DNA of 60,277 bases from Candidatus Thorarchaeota archaeon (GTDB taxonomy: Archaea; Asgardarchaeota; Thorarchaeia; Thorarchaeales; Thorarchaeaceae): the NCBI GenBank assembly GCA_003345545.1, contig PRDH01000028.1, positions 1 to 60,277 of the forward strand. The letters run 5' to 3'. Position 1 is the stretch's first letter. Each line of letters opens with the position of its first letter. Below, in pieces: positions 25,118 through 41,023 of this stretch. The position numbers and the translations under genes are program-made. The notes beneath the pieces are model-generated. The model was given only the letters and a program-made list of their open reading frames with translations. It did not search any database and was not told the DNA's origin.

Positions 25118-25127
25118 CTGACTCACC

Positions 25128-26624
25128 TCATGGGCCGAACACGCCTGAAAACACCGGGACTATGACATCGAGTGCCAAGCTCGGGAATATTCCAAAGATT
25201 ACAATGAGAACGCCAAGGATCACCATCGGGATGGTCATTGATCGAGGACTCTCCTTCACTTCCTCAAGAGACTCCGGATGCGCACCCAAGAACACGCGCC
25301 AGAAGAATCGCAGCATGTAGGCAGCACTCAGAATCGAGCTTGATGCTGCAATAATGGCCAGAAGTAGAAAGCTCATGTTGAGCTCCGCACCGGGAATCGG
25401 AATCGCTGCTTGGAAGCCTCCCAGAAACATCATCCATTCACTTGCAAAACCCGAGAGGGGAGGGCTGCCCGCAATGCTCATCATTCCTATCGCTGCCGCA
25501 AATGCAGTGATAGGCATCTTGTTGGAGAGACCACCCATCTTCTTGATGTCGCGAAGACCTGTCTGATGTATGACCGCACCGGCAGACATGAACAACAGCC
25601 CCTTGGAGAAAGCATGGTTGATGAGATGAAACATTCCACCAGATACGCCTGCAATTGTTGCAGTGCCCAGAGCGAAGAGCACGTACCCCATCTGTGAAAC
25701 AGATGAATATGCAAGGAGTCTCTTGATGTCTACCTGGGCAAGAGCCATGAAACCGCCGTAGAAAACTGTGATAACACCAAGTGTTGCTATGTAGAGGGCA
25801 AACTGACTTGCGACGACATCCAGAGTCAGTGTACCAAATCGTACGAGAGCATAGGCACCTGTCTCAATCATCGCACCGGACAGGAGAACAGAGATTGGAG
25901 TAGGTGCCTCTGCATGAACCGGTGGAAGCCACCAATGGATCGGAAACACTGCCATCTTGACTAGGAAGCCAGCAGCAAGCAGTATGAAGATAATCTTGAA
26001 TATCAGGTCTCCACTCGCCCCAAGGTTTGCCAGTACAAAAGATCCACCACCGTTGGCGTATAGCAATCCGAATCCAATAAGGATACAGACTGCACCGGAC
26101 TGGGTATAGAGCCAGAACTTGAGAGCTGTGCGCTTTCGAGTTTCTGGAAGTCCCCAGAAGAGGATGAGGAAATAGCTGGGGACAAGCATGATTTCCCATG
26201 CAATGAAGAATTCTATTAGGTTAGTTGCAAGTGTCACCCAAATCATGCCCATGATGAAGAAGAGCTGATTGGCGAAGAAGGTCGGTTTGTGTTCTGTGTG
26301 TTCAGTGTACCCTACTGCATACACCACTGATAGGAATCCGAGCACAACGACTGCGAGGGTGATGGGAAATGCTACGGGGTCAAGAAAGAGCCCGAACGGC
26401 TCTAGAAGTGTCGACCAGACATATGTCTCCTCTGAGAAGCCTTCGGTCATCAGCTCGTAGAAGGGCTCTATCATCAAAGCAGAGCCTGCAAGAGATACAC
26501 CAGTGGCAATCTTTCCCGCGCTATTACTGATTCTATTCTTGAAGACGTAGATGAGGAGTGCTCCTATGAACATGACAGCTAGAGAGAGCGCCATGAAGGG
26601 GAACTCAGAGAGGAAGGTCTGCAT
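25128..26624 (-). CDS. Second M-type antiporter-like subunit (M')
   Basis: A 498-residue membrane protein of the NuoM/MrpD family, about 14 helices. It keeps the TM5 glutamate (FFIAWEIMLVPSYF) and TM7 lysine (FLVKMAVFPIHWWLPPVHAEAPT). At the TM8 lysine position it reads SGAMIETGAYALVRF, with Glu/Thr where M and L have lysine. In the later half it has NHAFSKGLLF, as in L. It is therefore not a simple copy of the M at 21353-22924. The ATG at 26624 overlaps the NuoI stop as TAATG and has AAGGAGGT seven bases upstream, so the longer frame to 26648 is not needed. Confidence 0.88.
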   Translation of the reverse strand: MQTFLSEFPFMALSLAVMFIGALLIYVFKNRISNSAGKIATGVSLAGSALMIEPFYELMTEGFSEETYVWSTLLEPFGLFLDPVAFPITLAVVVLGFLSVVYAVGYTEHTEHKPTFFANQLFFIMGMIWVTLATNLIEFFIAWEIMLVPSYFLILFWGLPETRKRTALKFWLYTQSGAVCILIGFGLLYANGGGSFVLANLGASGDLIFKIIFILLAAGFLVKMAVFPIHWWLPPVHAEAPTPISVLLSGAMIETGAYALVRFGTLTLDVVASQFALYIATLGVITVFYGGFMALAQVDIKRLLAYSSVSQMGYVLFALGTATIAGVSGGMFHLINHAFSKGLLFMSAGAVIHQTGLRDIKKMGGLSNKMPITAFAAAIGMMSIAGSPPLSGFASEWMMFLGGFQAAIPIPGAELNMSFLLLAIIAASSSILSAAYMLRFFWRVFLGAHPESLEEVKESPRSMTIPMVILGVLIVIFGIFPSLALDVIVPVFSGVFGP

Positions 26625-27055
26625 TACCGGAACCTCCTTCCACGCCACTCAAACGGTTCCCTCTCAAGGGTAGTGATCTTATCCGGCCCGTAAATCAGGT
26701 CTCTTCGATCGCCCTCACTTAGGTCGACGACTGGAGTGTGGAAAAGAGCGTTGAATCGGCAGGCCTCGACACAGTGCCCACAGAAGATGCAACGAGTATA
26801 GTCAAAGTATAGAGCTGCGTCTTTCTCGTACATCTTATCGTCCTTGTCTATTCGTATCGCAACGACTGGGCATGACCTAACGCACTGCGCACACGCTGTG
26901 CAGTTCTGTCGGACATGGATGTGCCTTCCACGTGTCCTCTCCGGATAGATTCTGTCCTCAAATGGGTAGAAGTAAGTGAAGGGTCTCTTGAAGACCTGCC
27001 TGAATGTGTGTTTCAGAATCTTGAAGATGTCACCCAGTACACTGAAGAAACCCAT
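26624..27055 (-). CDS. nuoI: Complex I subunit I (two 4Fe-4S clusters)
   Basis: A 143-residue ferredoxin-like subunit with two complete cluster motifs: C52-x2-C55-x2-C58-x3-C62-P and C89-x2-C92-x2-C95-x3-C99. These correspond to clusters N6a and N6b, which carry electrons from the input module to N2 in NuoB. A short amphipathic N-terminus (FFSVLGDIFKILKHTFRQ) should lie on the membrane near NuoH. It starts four bases after the NuoH stop, with TAGGAGGT as ribosome site. Confidence 0.95.
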   Translation of the reverse strand: MGFFSVLGDIFKILKHTFRQVFKRPFTYFYPFEDRIYPERTRGRHIHVRQNCTACAQCVRSCPVVAIRIDKDDKMYEKDAALYFDYTRCIFCGHCVEACRFNALFHTPVVDLSEGDRRDLIYGPDKITTLEREPFEWRGRRFR

Positions 27056-27058
27056 CGT

Positions 27059-28198
27059 TTATGGACCTCCTAAGGGCAACAATGCTGCCAGTTCAGGTAG
27101 ATAGACTATCGCGAGCATTGCGAATATGACATTCAGTAGCGCAAGAGGGAGCAGATACCTCCAACAATAGTGAACAATCTGGTCCTGTCTAAGTCGCTGG
27201 AATGACGAACTGACAAGTACGAAGAAGAAAAAGGTGATGATGAACTTGATAGTGAAGTTCACTGCACCAGGGAGGAAAGGCAGACCAACAGGCCCTCCCA
27301 AAAAGAGAGCGACGATTATGGCTGAGTAGAGCATCTGCTCAGCGAATTCTGCAAAGTAAGTGAGAGTGAAGTAGATTCCTGTGAACTCAGTCCTCCAGCC
27401 GAAGATGATCTCAGAGTCTGCAACAGGGGCGTCGAATGGGAATACACCTACTGATGCAATGGCTGCAATCAGGAATGTAGCAAGGTTCACAGGCAATACA
27501 ACTGCAAACCAGACAGAAGTCTGTGCTTGGGCGATGCCCATGAGACTCAGAGACCCAGCAAGCATAGCAGGTCCAGCTGAAGAAACAATCATTGGAATCT
27601 CTGCAGCAAACTGATTGTTCGCCGCTCGGAATCCTCCTATGAGTGAGTACTTGCAACCACTGACCCAACCTGCAAGCAATGATACGACAGGAACTGCCGT
27701 CAGGAAGGCGAATACTAGGACAAGACTCACTGAGAGGTCCGAAATGTACCAGAAGTCAAAGTCCCAAGGTATGAAACAGAATGGCAATAGTACAACCACA
27801 AGAAGGAGACAGGGCAGGAACCTGAACATCCAGCGTTTTGCATTATCTGGAATGATGGTTTCCTTTCCTATTAGCTTGATAGCATCGGCGAATAGCTGAA
27901 GTCCTCCATACTTGCCAATATGAAACGGTCCTCGTCTGTCTTGAATGCGACCCCAGAGTTTGCGTGTGAACCACACAGCCCAAATCAGAGTGAGCACTAC
28001 AAAGATCAGACCCGGAAACAAGACGGCTCGAAACAAGAACATGAAGTTCGCTGGTGAGAACACCATTGCCCAGAGCCATTCAATGATGCCCCAGGCCCAG
28101 TAGAAGACACCCAGAACGAGGTTGATTATCCATTGCAGTATGCCGTAGATCCAATCGGGAATCCCTGCAAGCCAAGTGAAGAAGTCGAACTGCAACAT
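27059..28198 (-). CDS. nuoH: Complex I subunit H, divergent
   Basis: A 379-residue membrane subunit with about eight or nine helices that forms much of the quinone tunnel and its link to the membrane arm. The family block around FPFDAP is present, but the preceding Ala-Glu and Arg of typical NuoH (A-E-x-x-R-x-PFDLPEAE) read A-S-V-G-V-F-PFDAPVAD here. Two acidic residues and one arginine are thus lost. An extra hydrophobic N-terminus with several Trp (LAGIPDWIYGILQWI) precedes the usual first helix. The ATG at 28198 is preceded by GGAGGTG; an upstream start at 28225 would overlap NuoD. Confidence 0.88.
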   Translation of the reverse strand: MLQFDFFTWLAGIPDWIYGILQWIINLVLGVFYWAWGIIEWLWAMVFSPANFMFLFRAVLFPGLIFVVLTLIWAVWFTRKLWGRIQDRRGPFHIGKYGGLQLFADAIKLIGKETIIPDNAKRWMFRFLPCLLLVVVLLPFCFIPWDFDFWYISDLSVSLVLVFAFLTAVPVVSLLAGWVSGCKYSLIGGFRAANNQFAAEIPMIVSSAGPAMLAGSLSLMGIAQAQTSVWFAVVLPVNLATFLIAAIASVGVFPFDAPVADSEIIFGWRTEFTGIYFTLTYFAEFAEQMLYSAIIVALFLGGPVGLPFLPGAVNFTIKFIITFFFFVLVSSSFQRLRQDQIVHYCWRYLLPLALLNVIFAMLAIVYLPELAALLPLGGP

Positions 28199-28209
28199 CA
28201 CACCTCCAT

Positions 28210-29346
28210 TCACCGGTCCCACCATCCAGGATACGGGTCTAAGCTTCCAAATATCACAATGAAGTCCGCAAACTTCGCGCCAGGGACCAAGTCCTTCAAA
28301 GCGTAGTAGGATGCAAAACAGGGTCCACGTATCTTTGCGCGATATGCACTCTGTGCCTTATCTTGAGTCTTGAGCCATAGTGATGTGATACCTCGTGTCC
28401 CTTCTACGCGACCGTATGCCTCTCCTGCCGGAAGTCTATTGACTTTGGCACGAGCTTTGGCGTCGATGATAGGACCTTCGGGTAATTGCGGTAGCAGTTG
28501 TTTTATAATCTCTACAGAGGTTTCTGCCTCCTTGAATCTCTGTTCCATCCGGTCTAGAGCATCACTCTCTCCAGGATGATCCGGATTCTCAGTAATCGGT
28601 ACTTCCCAATCGCACAGGTTGTATGCAAGATTCGAATCAGGAGCATCTTTTCTCAGGTCCATGGGGATGCCACATGCCTTGATGGGAGGTCCACTTAGTC
28701 CCCATTTGAGACCCTGTTTTGCGGTGTACTGCCCAATGCCCTTGGTCCTCGCTCTGAAGGTAGGACTTCCCATCTGCATATCCCGGAACTTGGGCAATCT
28801 GTCCTCAAACCTCTTGACGGCTCTATTGATCTGTTTCAAGACCTTCTCATTAAAGTCGAACCTTGTTCCGCCAGGAGTTGAGAACGATACAGTGTGTCGC
28901 GAACCCGTCAACTCTTCAAAGGCATCCAGTGAATACTCTCGGTCGACCCATGGCCAGAGAGCCATTGTAAAGAATCCAAGCTCTGCATTGAACTGTCCCC
29001 ACCAGAATTGAATACTGTGCAGACGGGACAGCTCCATCATGATGGTCCTCATGACCTTCGCTCGATCTGGTACCTCAAGCTCTGCAATCTTTTCAACTGC
29101 AGCAACATAGGGATACTCAGCAAGAAATGCCTCAAGCATGCACATTCTTTCCATGACAAGGGACCCTTGCCTGAAGGTCCTGTACTCAAGGACCTTCTCT
29201 GCAGAACGGTGAAAGTATCCGGCATTTGGATCACACTTGACAATGTAGTCGCCGACCAAAGTCAATTTTGTCGCCCATCCGTGAGCGGAAACATGTTGAG
29301 GTCCGAACCAGACATCTATGGCCTCATCAAGGATGTTAGGGCTCAC
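28210..29346 (-). CDS. nuoD: Complex I subunit D (49-kDa), divergent quinone site
   Basis: A 378-residue peripheral subunit. It begins with GPQHVSAHG (usual GPQHPSTHG) and keeps the EVPDRAK, FRARTKGIGQ and DLRKDAP blocks. No nickel-binding cysteine pairs of hydrogenases are seen, as expected of NuoD. The segment that usually reads D-R-x-D-Y, whose tyrosine contacts the quinone head group, reads E-R-M-C-M. The 'SSHLL' histidine block reads SIQFW, and the end reads SLDPYPGWWDR instead of the usual SLD-x5-G-E-x-DR type. The GTG at 29346 overlaps the NuoC stop as GTGA. Confidence 0.88.
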   Translation of the reverse strand: MSPNILDEAIDVWFGPQHVSAHGWATKLTLVGDYIVKCDPNAGYFHRSAEKVLEYRTFRQGSLVMERMCMLEAFLAEYPYVAAVEKIAELEVPDRAKVMRTIMMELSRLHSIQFWWGQFNAELGFFTMALWPWVDREYSLDAFEELTGSRHTVSFSTPGGTRFDFNEKVLKQINRAVKRFEDRLPKFRDMQMGSPTFRARTKGIGQYTAKQGLKWGLSGPPIKACGIPMDLRKDAPDSNLAYNLCDWEVPITENPDHPGESDALDRMEQRFKEAETSVEIIKQLLPQLPEGPIIDAKARAKVNRLPAGEAYGRVEGTRGITSLWLKTQDKAQSAYRAKIRGPCFASYYALKDLVPGAKFADFIVIFGSLDPYPGWWDR

Positions 29347-29891
29347 TGGTTCGCTCCTCCTGTCCTTGTCGGTGTTTTTGGTGGAGTGATGCCTGTCTCA
29401 TCCAAGCGGCTTCTGTCAGTTTGGAATCTCTTGCGAAGAGGAAAAGCTCCCTCAAGTTCATCCGGTAGAAGGAGCAGCCGAGGGTCAGGATGATTCTTGA
29501 ATTCAATCCCGAACATCTCTCGAGTTTCACGTTCGTGCCATTCAAAGCCGGGGAAGATGTCACAAGTACTCTCGATCTCAGGTCTCTCCCCTTCCAACGA
29601 CACTCTCAGTTGGAGCAGTAATCGATTTGAGTGAGACCAAATGATGTAGATAAGCTCGTACTTGTCGTTTTCAAGATCGATTCCAAAGACCGATTCAGGA
29701 AGAGCGTCATGCACTTCCTCGTTGATCATCGTCACAACCTGTCGAATCTTATTAGCAGGCACCAGCAGCTCAATCTGATTCGCACCCAAAGACCTAGAAC
29801 CGACCTCGGGATGCTTATTGATGAGCTTTCTTGCGAAAGCTGAAGCGTCAATGGTGGAGGATTGTGACAGCTCATCTTCCCTCCATCTCAA
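29343..29891 (-). CDS. nuoC: Complex I subunit C (30-kDa)
   Basis: A 182-residue peripheral subunit with the family signature FPGFEWHERETREMFGIEF near residue 115, followed by RLLLPDE and FPLRKRF. It holds NuoD and NuoI in place and has no cofactor. The only long-frame start is TTG 29891, which overlaps the end of NuoK by 20 bases; its ribosome site is weak, so the start is uncertain. The Thr/Pro-rich last 20 residues are an extension. Confidence 0.9.
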   Translation of the reverse strand: MRWREDELSQSSTIDASAFARKLINKHPEVGSRSLGANQIELLVPANKIRQVVTMINEEVHDALPESVFGIDLENDKYELIYIIWSHSNRLLLQLRVSLEGERPEIESTCDIFPGFEWHERETREMFGIEFKNHPDPRLLLLPDELEGAFPLRKRFQTDRSRLDETGITPPKTPTRTGGANQ

Positions 29892-30183
29892 TTGGCTTGC
29901 CTAGGTCAACCGAATTGTATCGACGGTTATACATCAGCATCAAGACCAATGCTAGCGCAGTATGTGCAGCAGAAACAGAGATGACGAGCATGATTAAGCC
30001 CTGACCTGTGAAGTAGAACACCGGGTTGTATAGAGAGATGGCAACCAGGGCAATATTGGCTCCATTGCCCATTATCTCAGCTCCTATCAGGATTCTAATG
30101 AGGTTCCTTTTCACCATCATCCCGTATCCACCTAACCCTATCATCATGAAAGAGAGCACCAAATACCAGGTGAGCGGGATCAT
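29872..30183 (-). CDS. nuoK: Complex I subunit K, second carboxylate replaced
   Basis: A 103-residue protein with three membrane helices. The first key glutamate is present (LIGAEIMGN). The second, normally in an A-A-E-x-A-x-G-L block of helix 3, is histidine here (SAAHTALALVL). The ATG at 30183 overlaps the NuoJ stop as TGATG with GGAGGT nine bases upstream; an upstream TTG adds one residue. K normally carries protons between J and N, so the change should affect the coupling path. Confidence 0.9.
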   Translation of the reverse strand: MIPLTWYLVLSFMMIGLGGYGMMVKRNLIRILIGAEIMGNGANIALVAISLYNPVFYFTGQGLIMLVISVSAAHTALALVLMLMYNRRYNSVDLGKPIEMEGR

Positions 30184-30827
30184 CAAGCATCAACCTCCTT
30201 GGATTCATCGATAGTTCGCACATCATCAGCAATGGTTCGCTCATCTTTGGTAGAGCTTGCCTCTCCTCCAGAAGCCCCGATGATAACTCCGAGCTGCTCA
30301 GCTTTGTCGATCTTCAAAAGGGCGATTGCGCCCACGAGAGCGGTGAGGATGATCAGGGCGACCATCTGCACGTAGATACCATTCTCAGACCACAACCAGA
30401 GCGCAAGACCATTCAGATCTTGCGAGATACTAACGAATGCCTCATTGAATGACTCAGCCCATGGGAAGATGATCGCAAGAAAGCCAGTAAGTACTGTCAC
30501 GACTGCTGAAATGAGGAGACCAATATGACGAACTCTGGCGGACGCGAATTTCTCTAGAGTCGAGTCTTGGACTCTTGGTAATATGAGAACTGCAAAAATA
30601 ATCAAAGCGCTGATTCCACCAGTGTACACGGCAATCTGCATTCCAGCAATGAAGGGCGCTTCAAGCAGAAGGAAGAAACCAGCGACAAAAGATGCCATGA
30701 AACCAAAGAAGAATGCGGCATAGACTATCTCCTTATGCTCCAGGGCCAGATATGCAAGCACCAGGACCATGCCTGCCAAGAATAGAAACTCGATCTGCTC
30801 GAATAACGCAGGATCAAAACCTTGCAT
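30183..30827 (-). CDS. nuoJ: Complex I subunit J
   Basis: A 214-residue membrane protein with five helices and a charged C-terminal tail. The pattern AVYTGGISALIIFAVLIL is the usual TM3 region of NuoJ (A-V-x-V-G-A-x-x-V-L-F-x-F-V). A second half holds two more helices and ends in a hydrophilic 30-residue extension (SSTKDERTIADDVRTID). The start is two bases beyond the NuoA stop; GGGAGGT nine bases upstream supports ATG 30827. Confidence 0.9.
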   Translation of the reverse strand: MQGFDPALFEQIEFLFLAGMVLVLAYLALEHKEIVYAAFFFGFMASFVAGFFLLLEAPFIAGMQIAVYTGGISALIIFAVLILPRVQDSTLEKFASARVRHIGLLISAVVTVLTGFLAIIFPWAESFNEAFVSISQDLNGLALWLWSENGIYVQMVALIILTALVGAIALLKIDKAEQLGVIIGASGGEASSTKDERTIADDVRTIDESKEVDA

Positions 30828-30829
30828 CT

Positions 30830-31297
30830 CTATCGACCTCCCGCAGCCAACTGCTCTTGTTCTCTCTCAGCCTTCATCTTCCTGTATAACTCAACAGTCT
30901 CTCTGCCATCGAGGAATGTGTGTGGAATCATTTTCAAGGAAAAACCAATTCCGCCCATGATTATGAAAATGAAGACGATAACCTGCCATACAACCTCATA
31001 TTTGGTAGCGTCAGCCCATAGAATGGTCGAGGAAGAGAGGAGCCAAAGAAATGCGCCCATCACGTCGACAACTACAAAGAGCACAGTGTATACGAAGTAG
31101 TTGTAAGGATAGGAAATGCGTGAGGGACCTACTGGTACCTCGCCACATTCGTATGTCGAGGTCTTCTCGGAGTTCTGGAGAACATGAGGTCGTAGCACCC
31201 AGGAGGCTAGCAGCATTACAATGACGAGAATTATCGCAAGTAGCGCCCAGACTACGACAGGGAAGAAATCCAAGAACAATCTAGTGGTTTGTATCAT
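30830..31297 (-). CDS. nuoA: Complex I subunit A, first gene of the operon
   Basis: A 155-residue subunit with three membrane helices. The loop motif TSTYECGEVPVGPSRISY is the family signature. The second signature, usually F-D-V-E-x-x-F-L-x-P-W, reads V-D-V-M-G-A-F-L-W-L-L, so the glutamate is replaced by methionine. The C-terminal tail is long and charged. The ATG at 31297 has only a weak ribosome site. A TATA-like box at 31429-31438 on the minus strand would give a leader of about 100 bases. Confidence 0.9.
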   Translation of the reverse strand: MIQTTRLFLDFFPVVVWALLAIILVIVMLLASWVLRPHVLQNSEKTSTYECGEVPVGPSRISYPYNYFVYTVLFVVVDVMGAFLWLLSSSTILWADATKYEVVWQVIVFIFIIMGGIGFSLKMIPHTFLDGRETVELYRKMKAEREQEQLAAGGR

Positions 31298-31515: not shown

Positions 31516-31881
31516 GTGATTCATTTGGCTCGCGGCGAAGAAGGAAAATTCTTCTACTACCTATCGCTCCTAATTGGAATGTCTCTTCTGGGAGCCTACA
31601 TGTGGATAGTAATGAGTGCGGCACTTGCTCCGCAGTACGTGTTTTTCCATTTGATCCTTTTCATGAGCGGGATTCTACTCATTGCCTCGGCGTTCGGATT
31701 TGTTGCTGCTGATACCCGATCAAGTAGAGTAGCACTGACAATAGTTTCTGGCGTTTTTGGCGGTATTCATGCGTATCTCATCTTCGTTCTGTTTGAGTAT
31801 CTCACGAATGTCATCCTGTTTGCACTCATGGCTCTTGGGCTCATGATTGCATTTGCTGCTTTCAACTGGCTCTACGATTGA
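31516..31881 (+). CDS. Small four-helix membrane protein
   Basis: A 121-residue protein with four hydrophobic helices (about 13-37, 42-66, 71-95 and 98-118) and little else. It starts at GTG 31516, some 46 bases after a good TATA-like box. It sits between the nuo operon and the GlcD-NuoB operon on the opposite strand, in the only gap between them. No family recognised. Position suggests, but does not show, a link to the respiratory complex. Confidence 0.65.
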   Translation: MIHLARGEEGKFFYYLSLLIGMSLLGAYMWIVMSAALAPQYVFFHLILFMSGILLIASAFGFVAADTRSSRVALTIVSGVFGGIHAYLIFVLFEYLTNVILFALMALGLMIAFAAFNWLYD

Positions 31882-31891
31882 AGCGAAATCC

Positions 31892-32422
31892 CTACTCATT
31901 AGGAACAGCAGATGCAGGATCAACAGCATCAGCGGCTTTCTCGGGTTTTGTTTCAGTCTTAGGTGCAGCTTCTTCCGCAGGTTTTTGTTCAGCACCGTAA
32001 CGTAGTGACCCTACATCCAACATGCCCGGAGAGTAACTCTCTTCGCGAGTATGCATCACCGAGAAACCTCCGGCTGTCAGTACCGAACCTCCAAGCCCCC
32101 AGGCCGAGAGATACAGTGTAGTCCCAACTGCAGGGAGAGCATTCACAAATTCATCAACAAAGATTACGAAGAAAAAGCCAACAACAATCGATAGTGCCAT
32201 CATCAGGCTCTTTCCTTTACCTCTCGCAGGTCGGAAATATCCAACTAACAGGAATACTAACAATAGGGAAGTCCCACTTAGGAGAGCGAAGGCACTTCCA
32301 ATGACCAGCACCGATTCTGGCATCAAGAAGCCAAGATAGATGAAATTGAAGATGAACGATGACAGAATGATGATTCCTAGCCAGAGCATGCAAAACGGGT
32401 CGCTATCTTGTCGAATCGACAT
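31892..32422 (-). CDS. Four-helix membrane protein coupled to the GlcD-NuoB gene
   Basis: A 176-residue protein. Four membrane helices (about 11-32, 37-62, 72-90 and 97-120) are followed by a charged tail rich in Ala, Glu, Lys and Pro. The ATG at 32422 shares its A with the stop of the GlcD-NuoB gene (TGATG), so the two should be translated together in fixed ratio. No known complex I subunit matches. A membrane anchor or accessory subunit of the GlcD-NuoB arm is the natural guess. Confidence 0.7.
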   Translation of the reverse strand: MSIRQDSDPFCMLWLGIIILSSFIFNFIYLGFLMPESVLVIGSAFALLSGTSLLLVFLLVGYFRPARGKGKSLMMALSIVVGFFFVIFVDEFVNALPAVGTTLYLSAWGLGGSVLTAGGFSVMHTREESYSPGMLDVGSLRYGAEQKPAEEAAPKTETKPEKAADAVDPASAVPNE

Positions 32423-34362
32423 CACTGTATCAGCCCCATCGCATCCTGGTTTTCATATCTTCTTTGCCAGTGAGTCGTGCCAGCTCGTATTTTGTTCTGA
32501 AGAATCAGATGTGCCCGAATGAAATCTGCCGGCTTCGGAGGACAGCCCGGCAAGTAGACATCGACAGGTACTACCTTGTCCGGAGGCGTCATCAGGCTGT
32601 ATCCCTCCCAGAAGAGGCCTCCTGAAGCAACGCATTGACCAAAAGCGATCACATACTTGGGCTCAGGCATCTGCTCGTAAATCCTCCTGAGCCGTGGTGC
32701 CATCTTCTTGGTGAGCGAACCTGAGATCCACAGAACATCGGTCTGTCTCGGACCAAACAGGGGTAGCATACCAAATCGTTCAAAGTCCCATCGTGGAGCT
32801 ATCCCTGCAGCACCTTCCACCATGCAACATCCTATACCATACTGCATCGGCCAGGGACTATGGGCGCGTCCCCATCTGAGTACCCACTTCAGTGGCGGCA
32901 CATTCTGCAACCATTTCAGCAGAATGGGAGCGATCCGACCCCAACCATTTCTGAACAGATCAAAGAAGATCCACATGAAGTATTTCCCGATTCTCAAGAT
33001 GAACGGTAGCCAGTAGGCAAATATCTTCCCGGGATTCGAGATCTCCTTCTTGTCCCATTGAAGTTTCGCTGCTCGAATTCGGGACAGCCGTTCTTTTCCA
33101 AAGTACTGATATGCGTAGTTTGCGAACCAAATTCCTGTGGAGTGCACATGCCCTCCATGACGTTGTGCAATTTTGAATATGACAAAGCTCTGTGACCACG
33201 AGAGCATGTAGAAGTGTCTTCGCTCATCTTCAAGGAAGTAGCCCATCATAGTCACTCCGGTCTTTGAGTTGACGTAGCCATCGATCCCAGCTTTCGCAGA
33301 GGCTTGTTCATACTGGAAATCATCAAGGATTGCAACGAGATTCTCGAGAGGCGCAAAAGCTTGACCGACTACCAGAGTTGGCCCTCTCTTCTTGATCTTC
33401 ATTGGATAGTAGCGCAGCTGCCATTCATGTTCTGCAAACTCATCATCATAGACACGCCCTCGATACATCTCAGTGACTTCGCGGACAACTCTCAACCCCT
33501 CTTCTGTTTCTTCCTCGTTGCCCTCATATGCAATCATCAGTGAACAATGATTGGCCGGTATCGGGAACGGCTTCTTGCCCTCCCAAATGGCCTTTTTGAG
33601 GTCGGTGTACTTTGACTCCTCGAATTTCATCGTGTACGGAAGTGGGCCATCTTCGAGTATCTTCTCAATTGCAAGAACCATCTGATAGTTTTCTTCAAAA
33701 CTGGAAACAATGACCTTCATCGGCGTGAGGGTTTTTATCTTGAGAGTGGCTTTGGTGATGATACCCAGTATTCCTTCAGTGTCGCAGAAAAGGCCAAAAT
33801 CCTTCGTGTTGACTATTCTTCCTGTTGGCAGAACCACTTCGAGCTCGATTATGTTCTCATTGATCTTTCCATACTTCAACGAGCCAATGCCATCGCCACC
33901 TTGGGCAATCCAGCCACCCACAGTCGCTGAGATACCAGATGATGGATAACATCGTATATCCAGACCCTTCCTGTTCAACGCAAACTGAAGATTCGCCCAA
34001 GAGATTCCTGGTTCAACCGTGACAGTGAGATTCTCAGAGTCAACGTCAAGAATCCTGTCCATTCGGCGCATATCAACAATGATGCCTCCTTTTCTTGGAA
34101 TCGCGCCGCCATATCCTGATGTTCCTGCCGCTCTGGGGACGAGGGGGATCTTGTGTTTTCGCGCCAGCTCATAGAGCGCCTGTATCTCTTCAGGAGTCAG
34201 AGGTTGAACAAGGGCGTCGGGCTTTGTGTTCATGAGCCAACCGACTTGCTTTGGAAGAGAACCAACGTCTTGCCCAAACAGAATCAGCTCATGCTTCGCA
34301 GTGATTAAGCGGTCTCCGAAAATCTTGCCTAGTTCTTCAACCAGCTTTTGATCAAGGACCAT
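32422..34362 (-). CDS. Fusion of a GlcD/D-lactate dehydrogenase flavoprotein to complex I subunit B
   Basis: One open frame of 646 residues. Residues about 46-185 are a PCMH-type FAD domain (PRAAGTSGYGGA at 76-87, ISATVGGWIAQGG at 144-156, SLKYGK). Residues about 215-447 are the FAD-oxidase C domain with HGGHVHSTG (402-410) and the terminal NPGKIF, so the dehydrogenase half is complete. After an aromatic, hydrophobic linker (448-497) comes a full NuoB: HSPWPMQYGIGCC, with N2-cluster ligands C512, C513, C577 and C607 (VIAFGQC, YLPGCPPKP). GlcD-type proteins oxidise D-lactate, glycolate or other 2-hydroxyacids. NuoB passes electrons to the quinone site. The ATG at 34362 has a GGAG nearby. This is the only NuoB in the window. 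Confidence 0.93.
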   Translation of the reverse strand: MVLDQKLVEELGKIFGDRLITAKHELILFGQDVGSLPKQVGWLMNTKPDALVQPLTPEEIQALYELARKHKIPLVPRAAGTSGYGGAIPRKGGIIVDMRRMDRILDVDSENLTVTVEPGISWANLQFALNRKGLDIRCYPSSGISATVGGWIAQGGDGIGSLKYGKINENIIELEVVLPTGRIVNTKDFGLFCDTEGILGIITKATLKIKTLTPMKVIVSSFEENYQMVLAIEKILEDGPLPYTMKFEESKYTDLKKAIWEGKKPFPIPANHCSLMIAYEGNEEETEEGLRVVREVTEMYRGRVYDDEFAEHEWQLRYYPMKIKKRGPTLVVGQAFAPLENLVAILDDFQYEQASAKAGIDGYVNSKTGVTMMGYFLEDERRHFYMLSWSQSFVIFKIAQRHGGHVHSTGIWFANYAYQYFGKERLSRIRAAKLQWDKKEISNPGKIFAYWLPFILRIGKYFMWIFFDLFRNGWGRIAPILLKWLQNVPPLKWVLRWGRAHSPWPMQYGIGCCMVEGAAGIAPRWDFERFGMLPLFGPRQTDVLWISGSLTKKMAPRLRRIYEQMPEPKYVIAFGQCVASGGLFWEGYSLMTPPDKVVPVDVYLPGCPPKPADFIRAHLILQNKIRAGTTHWQRRYENQDAMGLIQ

Positions 34363-34570
34363 GAGTCCACTCTCCAGCTCATGAGCAGAGCCGCTTACAA
34401 ATCGAGGCTTGGAGAGCAGGAAGATAAAAACATAGCGTAGTAATGCATGCACAATTCGTTTTGCGAGGCCCGAGAGCAGATTGCTTCATCTGGTCGCGGT
34501 CCAAATGGAAGGATTTTAAGGAGCATTGCACCGAAATTCCTGAGTGATTCATTCTCGGAGATAAGTGACG
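34363..34570. promoter_or_regulatory. Divergent promoter region of GlcD-NuoB and the GlcF/HdrD-like gene
   Basis: About 200 bases separate the two start codons. On the minus strand TGTTTTTATC (34423-34432) is a TATA-like box for the fusion gene, and on the plus strand ATTTTAAG (34513-34520) is one for the iron-sulfur protein. GGAG at 34557-34560 serves the latter. Shared control is likely from the layout. Confidence 0.45.
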
Positions 34571-35797
34571 ATGGACTTTCCAACACTGAATGAATACGAT
34601 CTTCAAAGATACGCATTCACTTGCGCTCAGTGCAGTTTCTGTCAAGTAGGTCATGGTGCTTGTCCCACCTACAAAGTGAAGCGGCGCGAAACATATTCAG
34701 GCAAGGGCAAGATGCTCTTGACCCGAGCATTGATGCAAGGTCGAATCAAACCATCCGAGGGTCTCGAGGGTCTGAGGGACGGAATTTTTGGCTGTACTCT
34801 GTGTGGAGGTTGTGAAGAGGTCTGCCATGTGGATATCCCGTTCGTGAAGCTCTATCAGGTGATGCGCTCGGAGTTCAAGAAGCGAAATATGTGGCCCGAA
34901 AGACTGCAGACGGCAAAGGACACACTATTGAAGACTTTTAATATTCAAGGCCAGGCACAAATGGATAGGATAGAGGGATGGTCCTATTGGACTCCTAACG
35001 AGAATGAATTGCTGGGCAAACAGGGGACTCCAGCAAAGACTGCCTTCTTCGTTGGATGTGCGTCTTCGTTTCGGGGCGTTTCGATTCAAGCCACAATTGC
35101 CACGACACTGATCCTAGATAGGATTGGAGAAGAGTATACTATGCTGGGCGAACAAGAATACTGCTGCGGCGCGCCGCTTATCATGTCAGGCGATTTCGAG
35201 GGGGCAAGAGCTCTCGCAGAGCATAATATTCAGAAGTATAGAGAGCTCGGCGTTGAAACGATAGTAACCAACTGCCCGGGTTGCTACAAGATGTGGGCTC
35301 ATGAGTACCATGAGTTCTTGGGTATCGATCATGGTTTTGAGATTCGCTATGGCTATGAATATCTTGCAGATCTTCTTGATAGAGGGAAACTGACAGGTTT
35401 CAATACTCCTCTTAATGCCACAGTCACGTTCCACGATGGTTGCGACGCTGGTAGGAATACAGGATTCTATGAAGAGCCAAGGAAAGTACTGGAGAGTATA
35501 CCGGGCGTGACATTTGAAGAACTCCCGCACAACAAAGCAAACTGCTATTGTTGTGGTTCCGGAGGCGTACTGAGAGCCATTGATGCCGAATTCGCCAATC
35601 AGATCAATAGACTCAAGGTAGAAGATATCGAAGCCACAAATGCAGAAATCGTAGCGTCTGGTTGTCCATCTTGCGTAGACTTTATGCATGCTCAACTTCC
35701 ACAGGCAGGTTCGAATAAGATGGTGAAAGATCTTGCTGTCCTTGTCGCGCAAGCTCTTGGTCTGTCTTGGGACGGGCTTGATGAGATATATGGCTGA
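34571..35797 (+). CDS. GlcF/HdrD-type iron-sulfur protein with two CCG modules
   Basis: A 408-residue protein of the GlcF/LutA/HdrD/DsrK class. Two ferredoxin clusters come first: CAQCSFCQVGHGACP and CTLCGGCEEVCHVDI. Two complete cysteine-rich CCG modules follow: C-x34-CCG-x34-CPGC and C-x35-CCG-x35-CPSC. In HdrB/HdrD such modules hold noncubane clusters that act on disulfides; in GlcF and LutA they pass electrons from a flavoprotein. Its divergent neighbour is the GlcD-NuoB fusion, so it is the expected partner of that dehydrogenase. GTG 34565 is an alternative start, closer to the GGAG site. Confidence 0.92.
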   Translation: MDFPTLNEYDLQRYAFTCAQCSFCQVGHGACPTYKVKRRETYSGKGKMLLTRALMQGRIKPSEGLEGLRDGIFGCTLCGGCEEVCHVDIPFVKLYQVMRSEFKKRNMWPERLQTAKDTLLKTFNIQGQAQMDRIEGWSYWTPNENELLGKQGTPAKTAFFVGCASSFRGVSIQATIATTLILDRIGEEYTMLGEQEYCCGAPLIMSGDFEGARALAEHNIQKYRELGVETIVTNCPGCYKMWAHEYHEFLGIDHGFEIRYGYEYLADLLDRGKLTGFNTPLNATVTFHDGCDAGRNTGFYEEPRKVLESIPGVTFEELPHNKANCYCCGSGGVLRAIDAEFANQINRLKVEDIEATNAEIVASGCPSCVDFMHAQLPQAGSNKMVKDLAVLVAQALGLSWDGLDEIYG

Positions 35798-35851: not shown

Positions 35852-37114
35852 ATGAATAATCGATCGACAGTCAAGAGCAGGTATGAAAGGAAATGGATCT
35901 ACGAAGAGATTGTAGACCGAATACCACCATTCAGATGGATGCCCCCGTCTTATGAGGTAATTGCGCAGTTGCTTCTTGTGGAGGCCATTGGTGTGATAGC
36001 GTTCATCTATTTTCAGATGCCAGCCGAAGCTGCAATATTCGGTTCACTAGCAATCATCTATACTGTGGTCTGGTCCTCCGGATGTCTTTACGTTGTTCCA
36101 TGGCTCAGAAGACTTAGAGATCCCACTAATGAAGCTGAATACAAAATTCTTCAGGATTACAAGAACCGAATTCTCTTGGACCGGAAGCTGGAACTCATTG
36201 GTGGTGTTGTTTGTTTTGTCGCTGTCGTGCTCTACCTTTTAATCGACACTGATTATCTTCGGTATTTTCTTGGTGCGGGTTTCGGGAATCCATTCTTGTT
36301 CATTCTTATTCTTGTGTTGGCGTGGGACATCAGTTATCGATTGGGACTGTCGCTAGTAACAACCTTCTTCGCAGCAGTCCGATCCATAACGCTCAGTGCT
36401 GCTGCAAGAAAGCGAAGAGGGTTGGCCTACACAGCTTATTCCGAAGTCAGAACCCTCAAGCATCTTGACATGATTAACCTGTATTGGGGCCTCAGTGCTC
36501 TTCTTCTTCTACCTCTAGCTCTTCAATCGTATTTCTTGCTGCTTGGACTTTCCGTGTTTCTAGCAGGAATAATGGGACTTTCTACACTTAGTCTGCTAGC
36601 GATGGAAACTGTCCCTTGGTTTCCTCCAGATGTTGAAAGTATTCTCCATCATGAAAGATTCGCATATGTGAATGCATGCTCGAAGAATCAGCCACATGTG
36701 ACACCCGTCATCTTTGTCTACGATGGCAAGTATCTGTATTTCGCTATCTCCGTGGCTTCGGCCAAATACCGAATCATCAAGAAGAATCCGAAGATCGCGG
36801 TCTTAGTCGATATGCGGGATCGTGAGTCACCAATGAAGAATAGAGCTGTGCTCTTGATTGGAAAAGGAATGATTCTGGGAGAACTTTCAGTCATAGGGGC
36901 ATTCAGACTCTTTCTTCATGGTCTATGGCTTATCCGAGTTAGAGGGCTGTTCTCCAAGAAATATCCAATGTACATCAAGTACTATGCTGATCAAGCTAAT
37001 GATTTGCCACCAGCTTGGCGTAACAAGCCATTCCTTTCGAGAGTAATTGTACGCCTAGAACCTGAGAAGATAACTTACTGGCGTGAGGCACGACCAACAA
37101 CTCTGCGAGCGTGA
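35852..37114 (+). CDS. Membrane protein with C-terminal PPOX-type flavin-binding domain
   Basis: A 420-residue protein. Residues about 30-255 hold some five to six membrane helices in pairs, separated by charged loops. Residues about 265-415 form a split-barrel domain of the pyridoxamine-phosphate-oxidase-like family (FAYVNACSKNQPHVTPVIFV, then YRIIKKNPKIAVLVD and a GKGMILGE strand). Such domains bind FMN or F420, or serve as flavin carriers. The next gene encodes a free-standing relative of the same domain. A TATA-like CTATTAAC at 35822-35829 puts transcription start close to the ATG, so the mRNA may be nearly leaderless. Confidence 0.75.
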   Translation: MNNRSTVKSRYERKWIYEEIVDRIPPFRWMPPSYEVIAQLLLVEAIGVIAFIYFQMPAEAAIFGSLAIIYTVVWSSGCLYVVPWLRRLRDPTNEAEYKILQDYKNRILLDRKLELIGGVVCFVAVVLYLLIDTDYLRYFLGAGFGNPFLFILILVLAWDISYRLGLSLVTTFFAAVRSITLSAAARKRRGLAYTAYSEVRTLKHLDMINLYWGLSALLLLPLALQSYFLLLGLSVFLAGIMGLSTLSLLAMETVPWFPPDVESILHHERFAYVNACSKNQPHVTPVIFVYDGKYLYFAISVASAKYRIIKKNPKIAVLVDMRDRESPMKNRAVLLIGKGMILGELSVIGAFRLFLHGLWLIRVRGLFSKKYPMYIKYYADQANDLPPAWRNKPFLSRVIVRLEPEKITYWREARPTTLRA

Positions 37115-37118
37115 GATC

Positions 37119-37604
37119 ATGACACTTAGATTACCTCCGCGTGATTCTGCTAGGAAGACTGCAGATATTCCTGCCGCGGCTTTGGAGATCCTTCGAGATG
37201 GATTCTTTGCATACTTAGGTACAACTGACCTAGAATGCAATCCACATGTGACACCGATGTTCTATGTTTGGGATGATGAAACCAGAACAATCCATCTCGT
37301 CACCTCAAGACAGAGTAAGAAAGCTCTCAATATCAGACGCAACAAGAACGTGAGCATAACTGTAGACCAGCGGGATCCAGTGTCTCCAGCACGCAATGTC
37401 GGTGTCATGGTGCGAGGGAGAGGCTATCTCGTTGAAACGGAACGTGTCGATGACAAGCTGATGGCTAATTACCTAGAGAAGTATGCTGGTTTCCTTGGCA
37501 CAGGATATCCATTAGGTTCTAGAATAGCAATCCGTGTAATCCCAAGAGCAGTCTTCTATTGGAAGGGAACCAGCTTTTACACTTGGAAGAGCAGAAAGTC
37601 GTAG
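37119..37604 (+). CDS. PPOX-class flavin-binding protein
   Basis: A 161-residue split-barrel protein of the pyridoxamine-phosphate-oxidase-like class. Visible blocks are FFAYLGTTDLECNPHVTPMF, then IHLVTSRQSKKALNIRRNKN and VSITVDQRDPV, which hold the usual flavin-phosphate contacts (Ser, Arg, Lys). It is the soluble counterpart of the domain in the preceding gene, five bases upstream, so the pair arose by duplication or fusion. The F420 or FMN preference and substrate are not readable. The ATG at 37119 removes 12 residues of overlap from the longer frame. Confidence 0.8.
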   Translation: MTLRLPPRDSARKTADIPAAALEILRDGFFAYLGTTDLECNPHVTPMFYVWDDETRTIHLVTSRQSKKALNIRRNKNVSITVDQRDPVSPARNVGVMVRGRGYLVETERVDDKLMANYLEKYAGFLGTGYPLGSRIAIRVIPRAVFYWKGTSFYTWKSRKS

Positions 37605-37608
37605 ATAC

Positions 37609-38661
37609 TCACTCAGTAGGCATCATGGAAGCTGCTGCTTTTGCTTTGCGTTCTGCTTGATAATAGAAGGCAAGAGACACTGTTAGGCACAGGGCACCCC
37701 AGACAGGAATGTAGAGGGGAGGGACTGAAAATCCAATCAACAGGTAAGATAGTGACAGAAACAGTCCCGTAAACAAGTGGTTCGTGACGGTCGAGGCGTA
37801 TGCTGGTGTCAATTGAAGTGATTCTTCATAGTGTGCTAGCGCGTACTTACAACCTAGCACGGCGACAGGTATTGTAGCTAGTCCCAGAACTGTATACCAA
37901 TATGTTGGGTTTAGAAAGACGGGCAGTAGTATCGAAACGTATAGTGCTGCCATCAAGACGACGTACCCTTTCGCGGCGCGTTTTCGACCAAGACGCACTA
38001 CCGCAGTCAACTTGCCGACTGACTTGTCAGCCTCATAGTCGGGAAACTCGTTGATGTACAAAACAGCTGTGATTAGAATTGCAATCGGAATGGAGGGGAA
38101 TATTGCTTCCCAAGCAAGCACCTGAGTCTGAACGAAGTAGGCACCAAGAGTCATGAGAACCCCAAAATTGAGCCCAACGAAAATCTCTCCGATACCTCTG
38201 TTCACTAGTCTAAAAGGTGGAGCAGTGTAGAAGAAACCCGAGCAGACACCAATGATTCCAATAATAAGGACCTCTACGCCTCTCGTGTACGCAAGATACA
38301 GACCTATGCCGCCGCCAAGGACGAAGAATACTATCGACTCCAGGAAGACCTCTCCTGGTGACAACCACCCCTTCTGTATCATCCTACTTCCCCCAGTGAA
38401 AGGACGCACATACTCCAGGTTGATATCGTCGGTGCCGCTTCTGTGGTCAAAATAGTCGTTAGCAACGTTAGATCCAATATGGATGAAGATGCCTGCAGCG
38501 AGGGTCAGAAGAAAGATATCGAGAAGGAACGTACCTGTTGACGCCCAGGCCACGCTTGTTCCAAGAACCACAGGCACGATAGCGCCCGTTAAGAAGGGTG
38601 CGCGCACCTCAGCCAGCCAGACTCTGATTTTCGAAGGTTTTTCATCCGTCAAATCAATCAC
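37609..38661 (-). CDS. menA: UbiA-family prenyltransferase, MenA-like
   Basis: A 350-residue membrane protein with about nine helices. The first aspartate-rich motif reads NVANDYFDHRSGTD (about residues 67-80) and the second reads NEFPDYEADKSVGKLTAVV (about 210-228). YTAPPFRL between them is typical of MenA (1,4-dihydroxy-2-naphthoate polyprenyltransferase) more than of other UbiA members. MenA joins the polyprenyl tail to the naphthoquinone ring, so a menaquinone product is expected. Digeranylgeranylglyceryl-phosphate synthase or a chlorophyll-type role is less likely. It starts at GTG 38661; a TATA-like TTTAGTAAG about 40 bases upstream implies a short leader. Confidence 0.82.
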   Translation of the reverse strand: MIDLTDEKPSKIRVWLAEVRAPFLTGAIVPVVLGTSVAWASTGTFLLDIFLLTLAAGIFIHIGSNVANDYFDHRSGTDDINLEYVRPFTGGSRMIQKGWLSPGEVFLESIVFFVLGGGIGLYLAYTRGVEVLIIGIIGVCSGFFYTAPPFRLVNRGIGEIFVGLNFGVLMTLGAYFVQTQVLAWEAIFPSIPIAILITAVLYINEFPDYEADKSVGKLTAVVRLGRKRAAKGYVVLMAALYVSILLPVFLNPTYWYTVLGLATIPVAVLGCKYALAHYEESLQLTPAYASTVTNHLFTGLFLSLSYLLIGFSVPPLYIPVWGALCLTVSLAFYYQAERKAKAAASMMPTE

Positions 38662-38783: not shown

Positions 38784-39821
38784 ATGTCAGAGCGCCCAAC
38801 TGTTCACACTGAGTATGAAATGCAGACATCAGAACCCTGGCAGTCAGATTCTTCGGGTTTTCTGGAGAATGAGAAGATAAGAACAAGAATCAATCTCATT
38901 AACGAGGAAATCAAACGCTGCCTTTTGGATGAAGATGGAGAACCCAAGCAACTCTATGAAACGGTCCGTCATCTGATTCTTGCAGGTGGCAAGAGACTAA
39001 GATCCCTTTTGCTAATACTCGGTTGCGAGGCAGTGGGTGGGACTCTAGTGGACGCATTGCCTTTTGCAGTTGCCACTGAGTTCATACAGACTGCTAGTCT
39101 GATCCATGATGATGTCATTGATGAAGATGATTTGCGTCGTGGAGTCGAAACTACGCACAAGAAGTACGGAGAGAAGATGGCCATAATCTCGGGAGACCTG
39201 CTCGTCGGCCTGGCAATCAAGTTGATAGGAGAGAGAGCAACTCCCCAACTTCTGACCAGTGTTGCCACAGCTGGTATCCGGATGTGTGAAGGTGAAGCCG
39301 CAGACCTCTTGATGAGTCAAAACAAAGCTCAAACCTACACAACAAAAGCCGCTCTGGATATTATAAGAATGAAAACAGTCGCGTTCATGACTTACGCCGC
39401 GAAGGTGGGAGCGATTCTGGGTAAGGCGACTGAGGAGCAATCAGAACTGTTAATGAAGTATGCTGAGGATCTCGGTTTCTCGTTTCAAATTCGTGATGAC
39501 ATACTCGATATAGTTGCTACCCAGAATGGAACAGGAGAGACTGGTTTATCCGATCTGAACAGGAATGTAAGTAATTTCGTGCTTGCACATACTATAGAGA
39601 GCAGTTCTCCAAGAAAGAAGAAGGAACTCATTCGGAAATTGGACGAGGGCGATGTAGACTTTGCCTTCGAACGAATCAAAGAAATGAAGTCTATTGAATA
39701 CGCCACGGAAACTGCCAAGGAGTTTATGGAAGCTGCTAAGGACAGGATTCGTGGTACCAACTTCTCAAACGGCGAGTTGCTAATGCTTCTCGCAGACTTC
39801 GCAGTAAAACGGCAATACTGA
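38784..39821 (+). CDS. Polyprenyl diphosphate synthase (copy 1)
   Basis: A 345-residue trans-prenyl synthase. The first Asp-rich motif is LIHDDVIDEDDLRRG (about residues 107-121) and the second FQIRDDILDI (about 234-243). Residues at positions -4 and -5 before the first motif are Ser and Ala, small side chains that favour products longer than farnesyl. An extra 35-residue N-terminus precedes the fold. The ATG at 38784 has TGAGGAG nine bases upstream. It is divergent from MenA and lies close to a geranylgeranyl reductase-like gene, so it could make the tail for lipids or quinone. Confidence 0.9.
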   Translation: MSERPTVHTEYEMQTSEPWQSDSSGFLENEKIRTRINLINEEIKRCLLDEDGEPKQLYETVRHLILAGGKRLRSLLLILGCEAVGGTLVDALPFAVATEFIQTASLIHDDVIDEDDLRRGVETTHKKYGEKMAIISGDLLVGLAIKLIGERATPQLLTSVATAGIRMCEGEAADLLMSQNKAQTYTTKAALDIIRMKTVAFMTYAAKVGAILGKATEEQSELLMKYAEDLGFSFQIRDDILDIVATQNGTGETGLSDLNRNVSNFVLAHTIESSSPRKKKELIRKLDEGDVDFAFERIKEMKSIEYATETAKEFMEAAKDRIRGTNFSNGELLMLLADFAVKRQY

Positions 39822-39832
39822 TCTAGCTCACA

Positions 39833-41023
39833 CTACATGAACTGATACAACAGCTTAACGAAGGTTTTTGATGCTAAATCAACAGGAAGAGGCAGACGGC
39901 ACCGAATCAATGGCTCAAGAAATCTGACTCCTGCCAGATTCATACAGATATCAGTAATGACATCTGATGGCATGACTACGTCTGCAACTCTAAGGACTCT
40001 TAGTGCAGTTTCTAATTCCTGACCAAACTCAGCTCTCCACATCTGTTCATAGGAGGAGAGGGATTCGTTCTCTGTCAGGTACTTAACAACGGATTCCCCT
40101 GCGATACGGCCTCCGCATAGTGCAGTTGGAATTCCGCCTCCATTTGATGCCATTACGTGCCCAGCTGCATCCCCAACCAATAGCGCATTTTGAAACCACG
40201 TTTCGTGAAGTGGACCTCCCATAGGGATTATCGCACCTGTTTTTCGAACAATCTTCGCACTCTCGATCTTCTGTGCCAGCAAGACAAAAACAAACCGTTC
40301 TAGATACCGTCTAAGAGGAGTTGCATCTCCACCAACACTTCGTCTCATCCCAAAACCGATGTTGGCTAGCCCATCACCCTTAGGTATGACCCATGCATAT
40401 CCTCCAGGTGCTATCTTCTCGCCAAAGTACATCTCAACAACAGATGGGTCCACATCGACCCCACTCATTACGTATTGCAGGGCAGGACTGAGGTCTGACT
40501 CGGAGTGAATGAATCTCAGTCCCATCGAACGAGCCACGACGGATCTAGGTCCATCAGCTCCAATGATAGCATTAGCAGTGACTTTGTGTGTCGTATTCTG
40601 AGTTCTGACAGTGAGTTCATTTTTCCCTGGTCGTTTCAGCACGGTTGAACGCAGCTGAACCTCAGCACCAGCATCAACAGCGTTCTGCGCAAGTTGTCTG
40701 TCGAATCTGGACCTGTCAACAATGTTAGCCTCAAAGGGAAACTCAAATGTGCTGCCATTTGGCGAAATCAGGCGAATGGATTTCGTTCTGTTTGTGATGA
40801 ATTCTCTTGGCACATTTACAGCTTTAGGCATCATTTTGGAACGAGGAAACAGCCTCCGTGTTTCTGATGGCGTGGGGATGAGCTCGCCACACTGGACTGG
40901 CGTGCCCACTATAGACCTTCGATCGAGAACGAGTGCTCGTAAATTGCTACTGGCAACTATCTGAGCTGCAGTAGACCCTGCTGGTCCCGCTCCAACCACT
41001 GCAACATCATAAGGTTGACTCAT
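39833..41023 (-). CDS. Geranylgeranyl reductase family flavoprotein
   Basis: A 396-residue flavoprotein with FAD motif VVGAGPAGSTAAQIV, the VQCGELIP segment near residue 45 (the P-x-x-C-G-E type motif of the family), the internal GADGPRSVVARSMG and LVGDAAGHVMASNGGG. The family saturates geranylgeranyl chains of archaeal lipids (digeranylgeranylglycerophospholipid reductase) or of quinones. No other clear copy is in the window. The position, convergent with the polyprenyl synthase, fits either role. A TATA-like CTTTATAC lies about 35 bases upstream of the ATG at 41023. Confidence 0.85.
   Translation of the reverse strand: MSQPYDVAVVGAGPAGSTAAQIVASSNLRALVLDRRSIVGTPVQCGELIPTPSETRRLFPRSKMMPKAVNVPREFITNRTKSIRLISPNGSTFEFPFEANIVDRSRFDRQLAQNAVDAGAEVQLRSTVLKRPGKNELTVRTQNTTHKVTANAIIGADGPRSVVARSMGLRFIHSESDLSPALQYVMSGVDVDPSVVEMYFGEKIAPGGYAWVIPKGDGLANIGFGMRRSVGGDATPLRRYLERFVFVLLAQKIESAKIVRKTGAIIPMGGPLHETWFQNALLVGDAAGHVMASNGGGIPTALCGGRIAGESVVKYLTENESLSSYEQMWRAEFGQELETALRVLRVADVVMPSDVITDICMNLAGVRFLEPLIRCRLPLPVDLASKTFVKLLYQFM

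Follow-up and report, generated by a model that had tools for sequence, protein, structure and literature searches.

The fusion gene and its complex I locus

The window, a 60,277-nucleotide stretch of the Candidatus Thorarchaeota contig PRDH01000028.1, carries a gene (32422..34362, minus strand) in which a GlcD-type flavoprotein is joined to NuoB, the complex I subunit that binds the iron–sulfur (Fe-S) cluster N2. The frame is unbroken from 34452 to 32422 and encodes 646 amino acids plus a stop from the ATG at 34362. An alternative upstream GTG would yield 676 amino acids; 39 of the first 45 database relatives have 646 amino acids. Pfam domains were FAD_binding_4 (140.9 bits) and FAD-oxidase_C (39.5 bits) in the GlcD half and Oxidored_q6 (82.1 bits), and the NuoB half (approximately residues 491–646; 32425..32892, minus strand) passed the NCBIfam cut-offs of PRK06411 (179.4 bits; cut-off 116) and nuoB_fam (169.6 bits; cut-off 142.7). 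Its four N2 ligands (C512, C513, C577, and C607) were invariant in the 35 aligned fused database clusters, of 46 found, and their spacing was retained in 30 of 31 genomic copies of the fusion, the single miss being a copy cut by a contig end. An earlier, sequence-only reading of this DNA had proposed exactly such a frame, with GlcD, NuoB, and all four ligands, and the domain searches and alignments bear it out.

The same reading had described the GlcD half (residues 1–450; 33013..34362, minus strand) as complete, which holds for the predicted fold but not for the active site. This half has a flavin adenine dinucleotide (FAD)-binding domain, in which many residues are invariant across the aligned fused sequences, and a predicted VAO/LDHD fold. 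The canonical GlcD ligands (H, H, E, and H) were complete in all four annotated bacterial GlcDs, and in none of five fused sequences, 11 related sequences, and seven other GlcD-like frames of the same genome. The GlcD equivalog cut-off was missed widely (146.6 of 567.9 bits). The halves are connected by a conserved aromatic linker (approximately residues 451–490; 32893..33012, minus strand), for which two helices (451–472 and 474–486) were predicted by AlphaFold with moderate confidence. All 29 copies in which both end motifs were matched (two of the 31 were not) have 46 residues between NPGKxF and LRWGRA, in agreement with the linker of about 50 residues noted earlier; the constant length and conserved aromatic residues argue for a rigid joint. 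The AlphaFold models were single-chain models (predicted template-modelling score, pTM, 0.68–0.70), and in the structure comparison the NuoB half was absent among the best 50 matches, all of which were filled by the GlcD half.

A GlcF/HdrD-like Fe-S protein of 410 amino acids is encoded divergently from the fusion (34565..35797, plus strand), as the sequence-only reading had stated. It contains a 4Fe-4S dicluster domain (PF13183) and two CCG domains (PF02754); of its two 4Fe-4S motifs, the first has a wider spacing before the last cysteine. Among 31 fusion loci, the gene was divergent in all 27 that held it, lying within about 220 bp of the fusion in 21 and at 2.2–4.8 kb in six. The protein matched HdrB structures, and its best solved relative was 9ojn, 'Iron-sulfur-binding reductase' (E 6.4e-29), which we take to be an EtfD-type protein.

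The remaining complex I genes were found downstream, where they had been reported, on the strand of the fusion and in the order nuoA-J-K-C-D-H-I-M-L-M-N. Two small membrane genes lie between: one for a 177-amino-acid protein (31892..32425, minus strand), which overlaps the end of the fusion gene and has no Pfam or NCBIfam match, and one for a hydrophobic protein of 121 amino acids on the opposite strand (31516..31881, plus strand), without a family match. A relative of the 177-amino-acid protein occurs in 29 of the 31 fusion loci, and the protein is a candidate extra subunit of the complex. All of the following genes are on the minus strand: nuoA (30830..31297; PF00507, 60.9 bits), nuoJ (30183..30827; NCBIfam NuoJ matches below their cut-offs), nuoK (29872..30186; NCBIfam NuoK/FpoK matches, with NF004320 reaching its cut-off at 57 bits), nuoC (29343..29891; PF00329, 98.3 bits), nuoD (28210..29346; PF00346, 200.1 bits), nuoH (27059..28225; PF00146, 281 bits), nuoI (26624..27055; two 4Fe-4S motifs), a first nuoM-type gene for an antiporter-like subunit (25128..26648; TIGR01972, 305.5 bits, cut-off 263.8), nuoL (22925..25126; 733 amino acids; TIGR01974, 456.9 bits, cut-off 407.5), a second nuoM-type gene (21353..22924; TIGR01972, 419.7 bits, cut-off 263.8), and nuoN (19836..21356; TIGR01770 as the best family, 298.2 bits, below the cut-off of 332.6). 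Together with the fused NuoB, the window thus holds the core set A, B, C, D, H, I, J, K, L, M, and N, with four antiporter-like subunits (two of NuoM type, NuoL, and NuoN) in the pump; the complete set was found within one retrieved locus in 14 of the 31 fusion loci. Compared with 8e9g_L, NuoL has approximately 31 extra residues in the lateral-helix region, between two aligned pieces of which the second is weak.

In NuoD, ER[MLI]C[ML] replaces the usual DR[LM]DY, and the quinone tyrosine is missing in all 25 fusion loci that hold nuoD. The paired CxxC motifs of group 4 [NiFe] hydrogenases are absent, the two sites reading ERMCML and LDPYPGWWDR. The Fpo cut-offs were missed by FpoC (86.1 of 220 bits), FpoD (246.4 of 600 bits), FpoI (51.9 of 180 bits), and FpoK (62.3 of 145 bits). 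No NADH-module genes were found at the fusion locus, and NuoF (PF01512) had no match in the genome of the window, which is 92.9% complete; NuoE and NuoG were not searched. Apart from the fusion, this genome has just one PF01058 protein, on contig C52, and no relatives of the window's complex I genes were found on that contig. The stable fusion beside GlcF and a complex I without NADH-module genes supports the sequence-only reading to that extent.

Beyond GlcF lie genes for a membrane-anchored PPOX-class (F420/flavin split-barrel) protein (35852..37114, plus strand; weak PPOX matches below the cut-off), a second PPOX-class protein (37083..37604, plus strand; matches below the cut-off), a UbiA-family prenyltransferase of MenA type (37609..38661, minus strand; TIGR00751, 123.8 bits, cut-off 102.15), a polyprenyl diphosphate synthase (38784..39821, plus strand), and a geranylgeranyl reductase family protein (39833..41023, minus strand; TIGR02032, 242.9 bits, cut-off 158.8). 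Relatives of these genes were found in many other loci. Four related genomes have an island of GlcF-GlcD pairs (GlcD of about 573–600 amino acids) and cytochrome c assembly genes near the fusion: L241 (G030:C148), L238 (G017:C7), L239 and L240 (G021:C36), and L236 and L237 (G006:C1). CcmB was found in all four and a CcmC-type protein was confirmed in L241. Nearby genes encode proteins that contain CxxCH motifs, six of them in the L241 protein and seven in the L240 one. The window has no such island, only about 1 kb separating the geranylgeranyl reductase gene from mutS.

Conservation of the fusion and its unfused relatives

The distribution of the fusion was examined in the 47 genomes of its class set, which represent 13 genera of one family. 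The class is likely Thorarchaeia, because most named database relatives of the fusion are Candidatus Thorarchaeota. Both halves were found in one frame in 31 genomes and nine genera. In two of these genomes a contig end truncates the copy (G023 starts at residue 107 and G011 stops at residue 591), and a further genome (G020) has only a fragment, at a contig edge. Misassembly, which the sequence-only reading had allowed for, is ruled out by the identical junction in 31 genomes, one of which (G006) carries the fusion on a single contig of 3.16 Mb. The fusion is real and conserved across a clade. Across the phylum (227 genomes), matches that reached E 1e-60 or better spanned both halves only within this family. 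Of the 120 clusters listed from 755 protein-database hits, 46 had both the FAD_binding_4 and NuoB domains, and many of the named ones are annotated as NuoB only.

The fusion belongs to one type of complex I, because it co-occurs with a close relative of the window's NuoD across the 47 genomes. Such a relative was found in 32 genomes (as fragments in two), comprising 30 with the fusion, G020 with the fusion fragment, and G003 without it; G008 is the only genome with the fusion and no close NuoD relative. G003 and G008 are fragmented assemblies. The remaining 14 genomes have neither, their NuoD matches being about 26–33% or absent.

Unfused arrangements were found in other families. In G223 and G224, nuoB is separate, GlcD and GlcF are encoded about 2 kb behind nuoN, relatives of the UbiA, geranylgeranyl reductase, and IspA genes follow, and relatives of the PPOX-class protein at 35852..37114 adjoin nuoA; in each genome the nuo genes are divided between two contigs, so that their continuity is inferred. 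The G223 GlcD matches a protein named Candidatus Hodarchaeales at 71%. In G047, of a third family, a separate nuoB (57%) adjoins nuoA. The unfused GlcD-GlcF behind nuoN in this Hodarchaeales-like lineage indicates that GlcD and GlcF partner complex I outside the fusion as well.

In the GlcD tree, the nine sampled fused sequences formed one clade (99/98), which was sister to two unfused Thorarchaeal GlcDs (100/100). The unfused Thorarchaeal proteins (P0050, P0051, and that of G037) keep the linker and end in PPLKW[IL]R, at the point where the NuoB half starts in the fusion; they look like fusions cut down after the loss of complex I, and the sister-group position allows either order. The Hodarchaeal GlcDs linked to complex I branch elsewhere, not as sisters of the fused sequences. 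Their association may therefore have arisen independently of the fused one, and the tree is compatible with one ancient partnership as well as with two recruitments.

Other joined and enlarged forms were seen in the same searches. Related GlcDs are fused to NrfD (PF03916) in P0052, named as Hydrothermarchaeota, and P0350. In other Asgards, NuoI-, NuoB-, and NuoD-like domains occur in one frame in L224 (G223:C6, 669 amino acids) and L225 (G103:C31, 671 amino acids), and frames of about 670 amino acids at NuoD matches in G049, G115, G122, G171, and G224 may be the same fusion. The Hodarchaeales-like complex I (L206, G223:C7, and L129, G223:C4) has two NuoM-type subunits by family model, to which similarity adds NuoL, another NuoM, and NuoN; the total would be five antiporter-like subunits if the contig ends join.

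Electron entry and exit

We consider it likely, by a narrow balance, that the fusion anchors a GlcD-GlcF flavin/Fe-S module on a complex I whose locus is free of NADH-module genes, and that a non-NADH donor feeds the pump. GlcD and GlcF would pair, and electrons would pass from FAD through the GlcF clusters and NuoI to N2 and on to a membrane carrier, with the 177-amino-acid protein and the linker serving to hold the module close to the membrane. The proposal that electrons go straight from FAD into N2 appears weak, the path through GlcF and NuoI being likelier. Since the residues that normally serve as catalytic ligands have been lost, a simple 2-hydroxyacid is an improbable donor; some other organic compound, or a protein such as electron-transferring flavoprotein (ETF), would fit better. 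Stated in full, the scheme is more tentative and, in our estimate, falls somewhat short of an even chance: GlcD-NuoB with a rebuilt active site would pass electrons from an organic or protein donor through FAD and the GlcF/HdrD-like protein to N2 of a four-antiporter complex, which would reduce a prenylated redox lipid. The sequences support a flavodehydrogenase-like module built into a complex I subunit, and the earlier interpretation as a whole is partly supported.

Several observations weigh against this scheme. The FAD half, which lacks the canonical ligands, may oxidise no small molecule at all. A NuoF-domain protein is encoded on another contig in five of the 31 fusion genomes. At least four fusion genomes (G002, G004, G007, and G027) also have a NuoB-like protein (43–45%) on another contig, where it sits among hydrogenase-type NuoC, NuoD, NuoH, and NuoI relatives. 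ETF is encoded on other contigs than the fusion or, in the single-contig G006, 1.3 Mb away. The complex-I-linked Hodarchaeal GlcDs form a clade separate from the fused ones, and the model is poorly predicted at the start of the NuoB half (523–536). The direction of electron flow is one that we infer, and ferredoxin could enter at NuoI directly.

The last point leads to a reading that we regard as rather unlikely, in which NuoI takes up electrons from reduced ferredoxin, as in other complexes that lack the NADH module, and GlcD-GlcF forms a second port, such as an organic or disulfide-reducing exit or a bifurcating branch. It agrees with the lack of a NuoF match in the genome of the window, with four antiporter-like subunits, which suit a low-potential donor, and with the two CCG domains of GlcF, which resemble those of heterodisulfide reductases, and with its HdrB matches; ferredoxin is also the donor hypothesised for the complex I of Sifarchaeia and Jordarchaeia in the accessible passages of PMC9723677. 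Ferredoxin entry alone, however, leaves the covalent tie between GlcD and NuoB unexplained, and the fusion of GlcD relatives to NrfD points to delivery into partners in the membrane.

That the GlcD half oxidises D-lactate, glycolate, or a related 2-hydroxyacid and thereby drives quinone reduction and ion pumping, as the sequence-only reading had it, now appears improbable. 2-hydroxyacid oxidation by this half is unsupported, because the His/His/Glu/His set that is complete in the canonical GlcDs is incomplete in every fused sequence compared, and the equivalog score points the same way. The energy is also short: electron transfer from lactate to menaquinone yields about 22 kJ/mol per two electrons, which is too little for four or more ions. 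With four antiporter-like subunits a wider redox span would be required, which probably means a donor of lower potential, or an acceptor of higher potential, than had been assumed. The NuoD tyrosine and the menaquinone markers considered below weaken the claim further.

About equally doubtful is a role as an ETF dock, in which GlcD-GlcF relays electrons of acyl-CoA oxidation from EtfAB to complex I. LctD, a structural relative of the GlcD half, was solved with EtfAB (7qh2), and the closest solved relative of GlcF, 9ojn, is presumably of EtfD type, as noted above. ETF domains were found in 37 of the 47 genomes, including that of the window, and in 28 of the 31 fusion genomes. The accessible text of PMC2702500 further describes hdrF, which encodes an HdrD-like protein with a membrane part, in a cluster with etfBA in Desulfobacterium. 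Against this, three fusion genomes show no ETF, which is also present without the fusion, and ETF is on a different contig in every ETF-bearing fusion genome except G006; because of these distances, ETF has no evident tie to this complex. A GlcD half that serves non-catalytically, in structure or assembly, would account for the lost ligands and is highly improbable given the FAD-binding domain (140.9 bits), its many invariant residues, and the GlcF retained alongside.

For a GlcD-GlcF module that feeds complex I, the probable acceptor is a prenylated redox lipid to whose synthesis the adjacent MenA-type enzyme contributes. The NuoD tyrosine normally acts at the quinone site, and we tried and rejected its loss as proof against a quinone. 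The loss does not exclude one because it is common to Hodarchaeal NuoD and one Thaumarchaeotal NuoD, with which the tree groups the fused clade, and Thaumarchaeota use quinones. In the nuoD of other Asgard loci (L211, L212, L214–L217, and L220), the motif is DRLCY, with cysteine for aspartate and the tyrosine kept. The classical and futalosine pathways to menaquinone were rejected on one marker each: MenD exceeded its cut-off in none of the 47 genomes (weaker matches in 14; no further menaquinone-pathway genes were included), nor did MqnC (weaker matches in five). The membrane carrier may thus be unusual, since these markers stayed below their cut-offs and yet a MenA-type enzyme is encoded nearby. 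COX1 exceeded its cut-off in none of the 47 genomes, with one weak match. CcmB did so in 14, not including that of the window; 13 of these are fusion genomes, counting the G020 fragment, and the remaining match was just over the cut-off. These matches hint that some fusion-bearing Thorarchaeia use c-type cytochromes.

Relation to described systems

The complex resembles several known systems in part. The 2M-type complex I has a second NuoM and a longer NuoL lateral helix, and it shares two NuoM, NuoL, and NuoN with the complex described here; its gene order differs, and here a GlcD module takes the place of NuoEFG. The best solved match of NuoD was chain L of 6u8y (E 1.3e-54), with cysteine at the same site; this is presumably the Pyrococcus MBS complex, which to our knowledge has no GlcD module. 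With the D-2-hydroxyacid dehydrogenases LDHD, GlcD, and LctD, the GlcD half has the predicted fold and the FAD-binding domain in common, whereas it lacks their metal and catalytic ligands and carries NuoB at its C-terminus. GlcD-HdrD (about 1000 amino acids) and GlcD-NrfD fusions contain related GlcDs, likewise without the canonical ligand motifs, but their partner is an HdrD or NrfD domain and not a complex I subunit.

In the accessible passages of the open-access literature searched (including PMC9723677, PMC10667645, PMC10307638, PMC12361115, and PMC2702500), no description of a GlcD-NuoB fusion was found. Fused Nuo subunits are described in PMC12361115, none of them with GlcD in the text available. 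The link between GlcD/HdrD and an Fpo-like pump is an idea already in print: for Bathyarchaeia and Methanomethylicia, Fpo-associated HdrD/GlcD proteins were suggested to couple lactate oxidation to heterodisulfide reduction (PMC10667645, as far as accessible). There, as here, GlcD and HdrD-type proteins are tied to an Fpo or complex I-like pump; the accessible description mentions no fusion, and by that description the NuoB-fused form without canonical ligands is set apart. The complex I of Sifarchaeia and Jordarchaeia is, as here, of Asgard origin and without NuoEFG, and Dld is encoded beside HdrD; unlike here, ferredoxin input is assumed and no GlcD-NuoB fusion is mentioned in the passages accessible (PMC9723677). 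The earlier statement that no enzyme of this design was known to be described needs qualifying, since the association of HdrD/GlcD with an Fpo-like pump is already proposed, though not as a fusion. Judging by the literature search, novelty lies in the covalent attachment, in its retention through most of a family, and in the absence of the active site.

Complex I is usually described by interchangeable electron-entry modules. If the reading of a GlcD-GlcF module feeding complex I is true, a dehydrogenase-like protein covalently attached to the N2 subunit and kept across nine Asgard genera would add a further entry module to those for NADH, F420H2, and ferredoxin. The gene fusion would fix a partnership of GlcD/HdrD with an Fpo-like pump that had been proposed for other archaea. 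With the altered active site at one end of the chain, and the altered NuoD site and missing quinone-headgroup markers at the other, both ends are directly testable, and the fusion offers a concrete handle on the respiration of these relatives of the eukaryotic ancestor.

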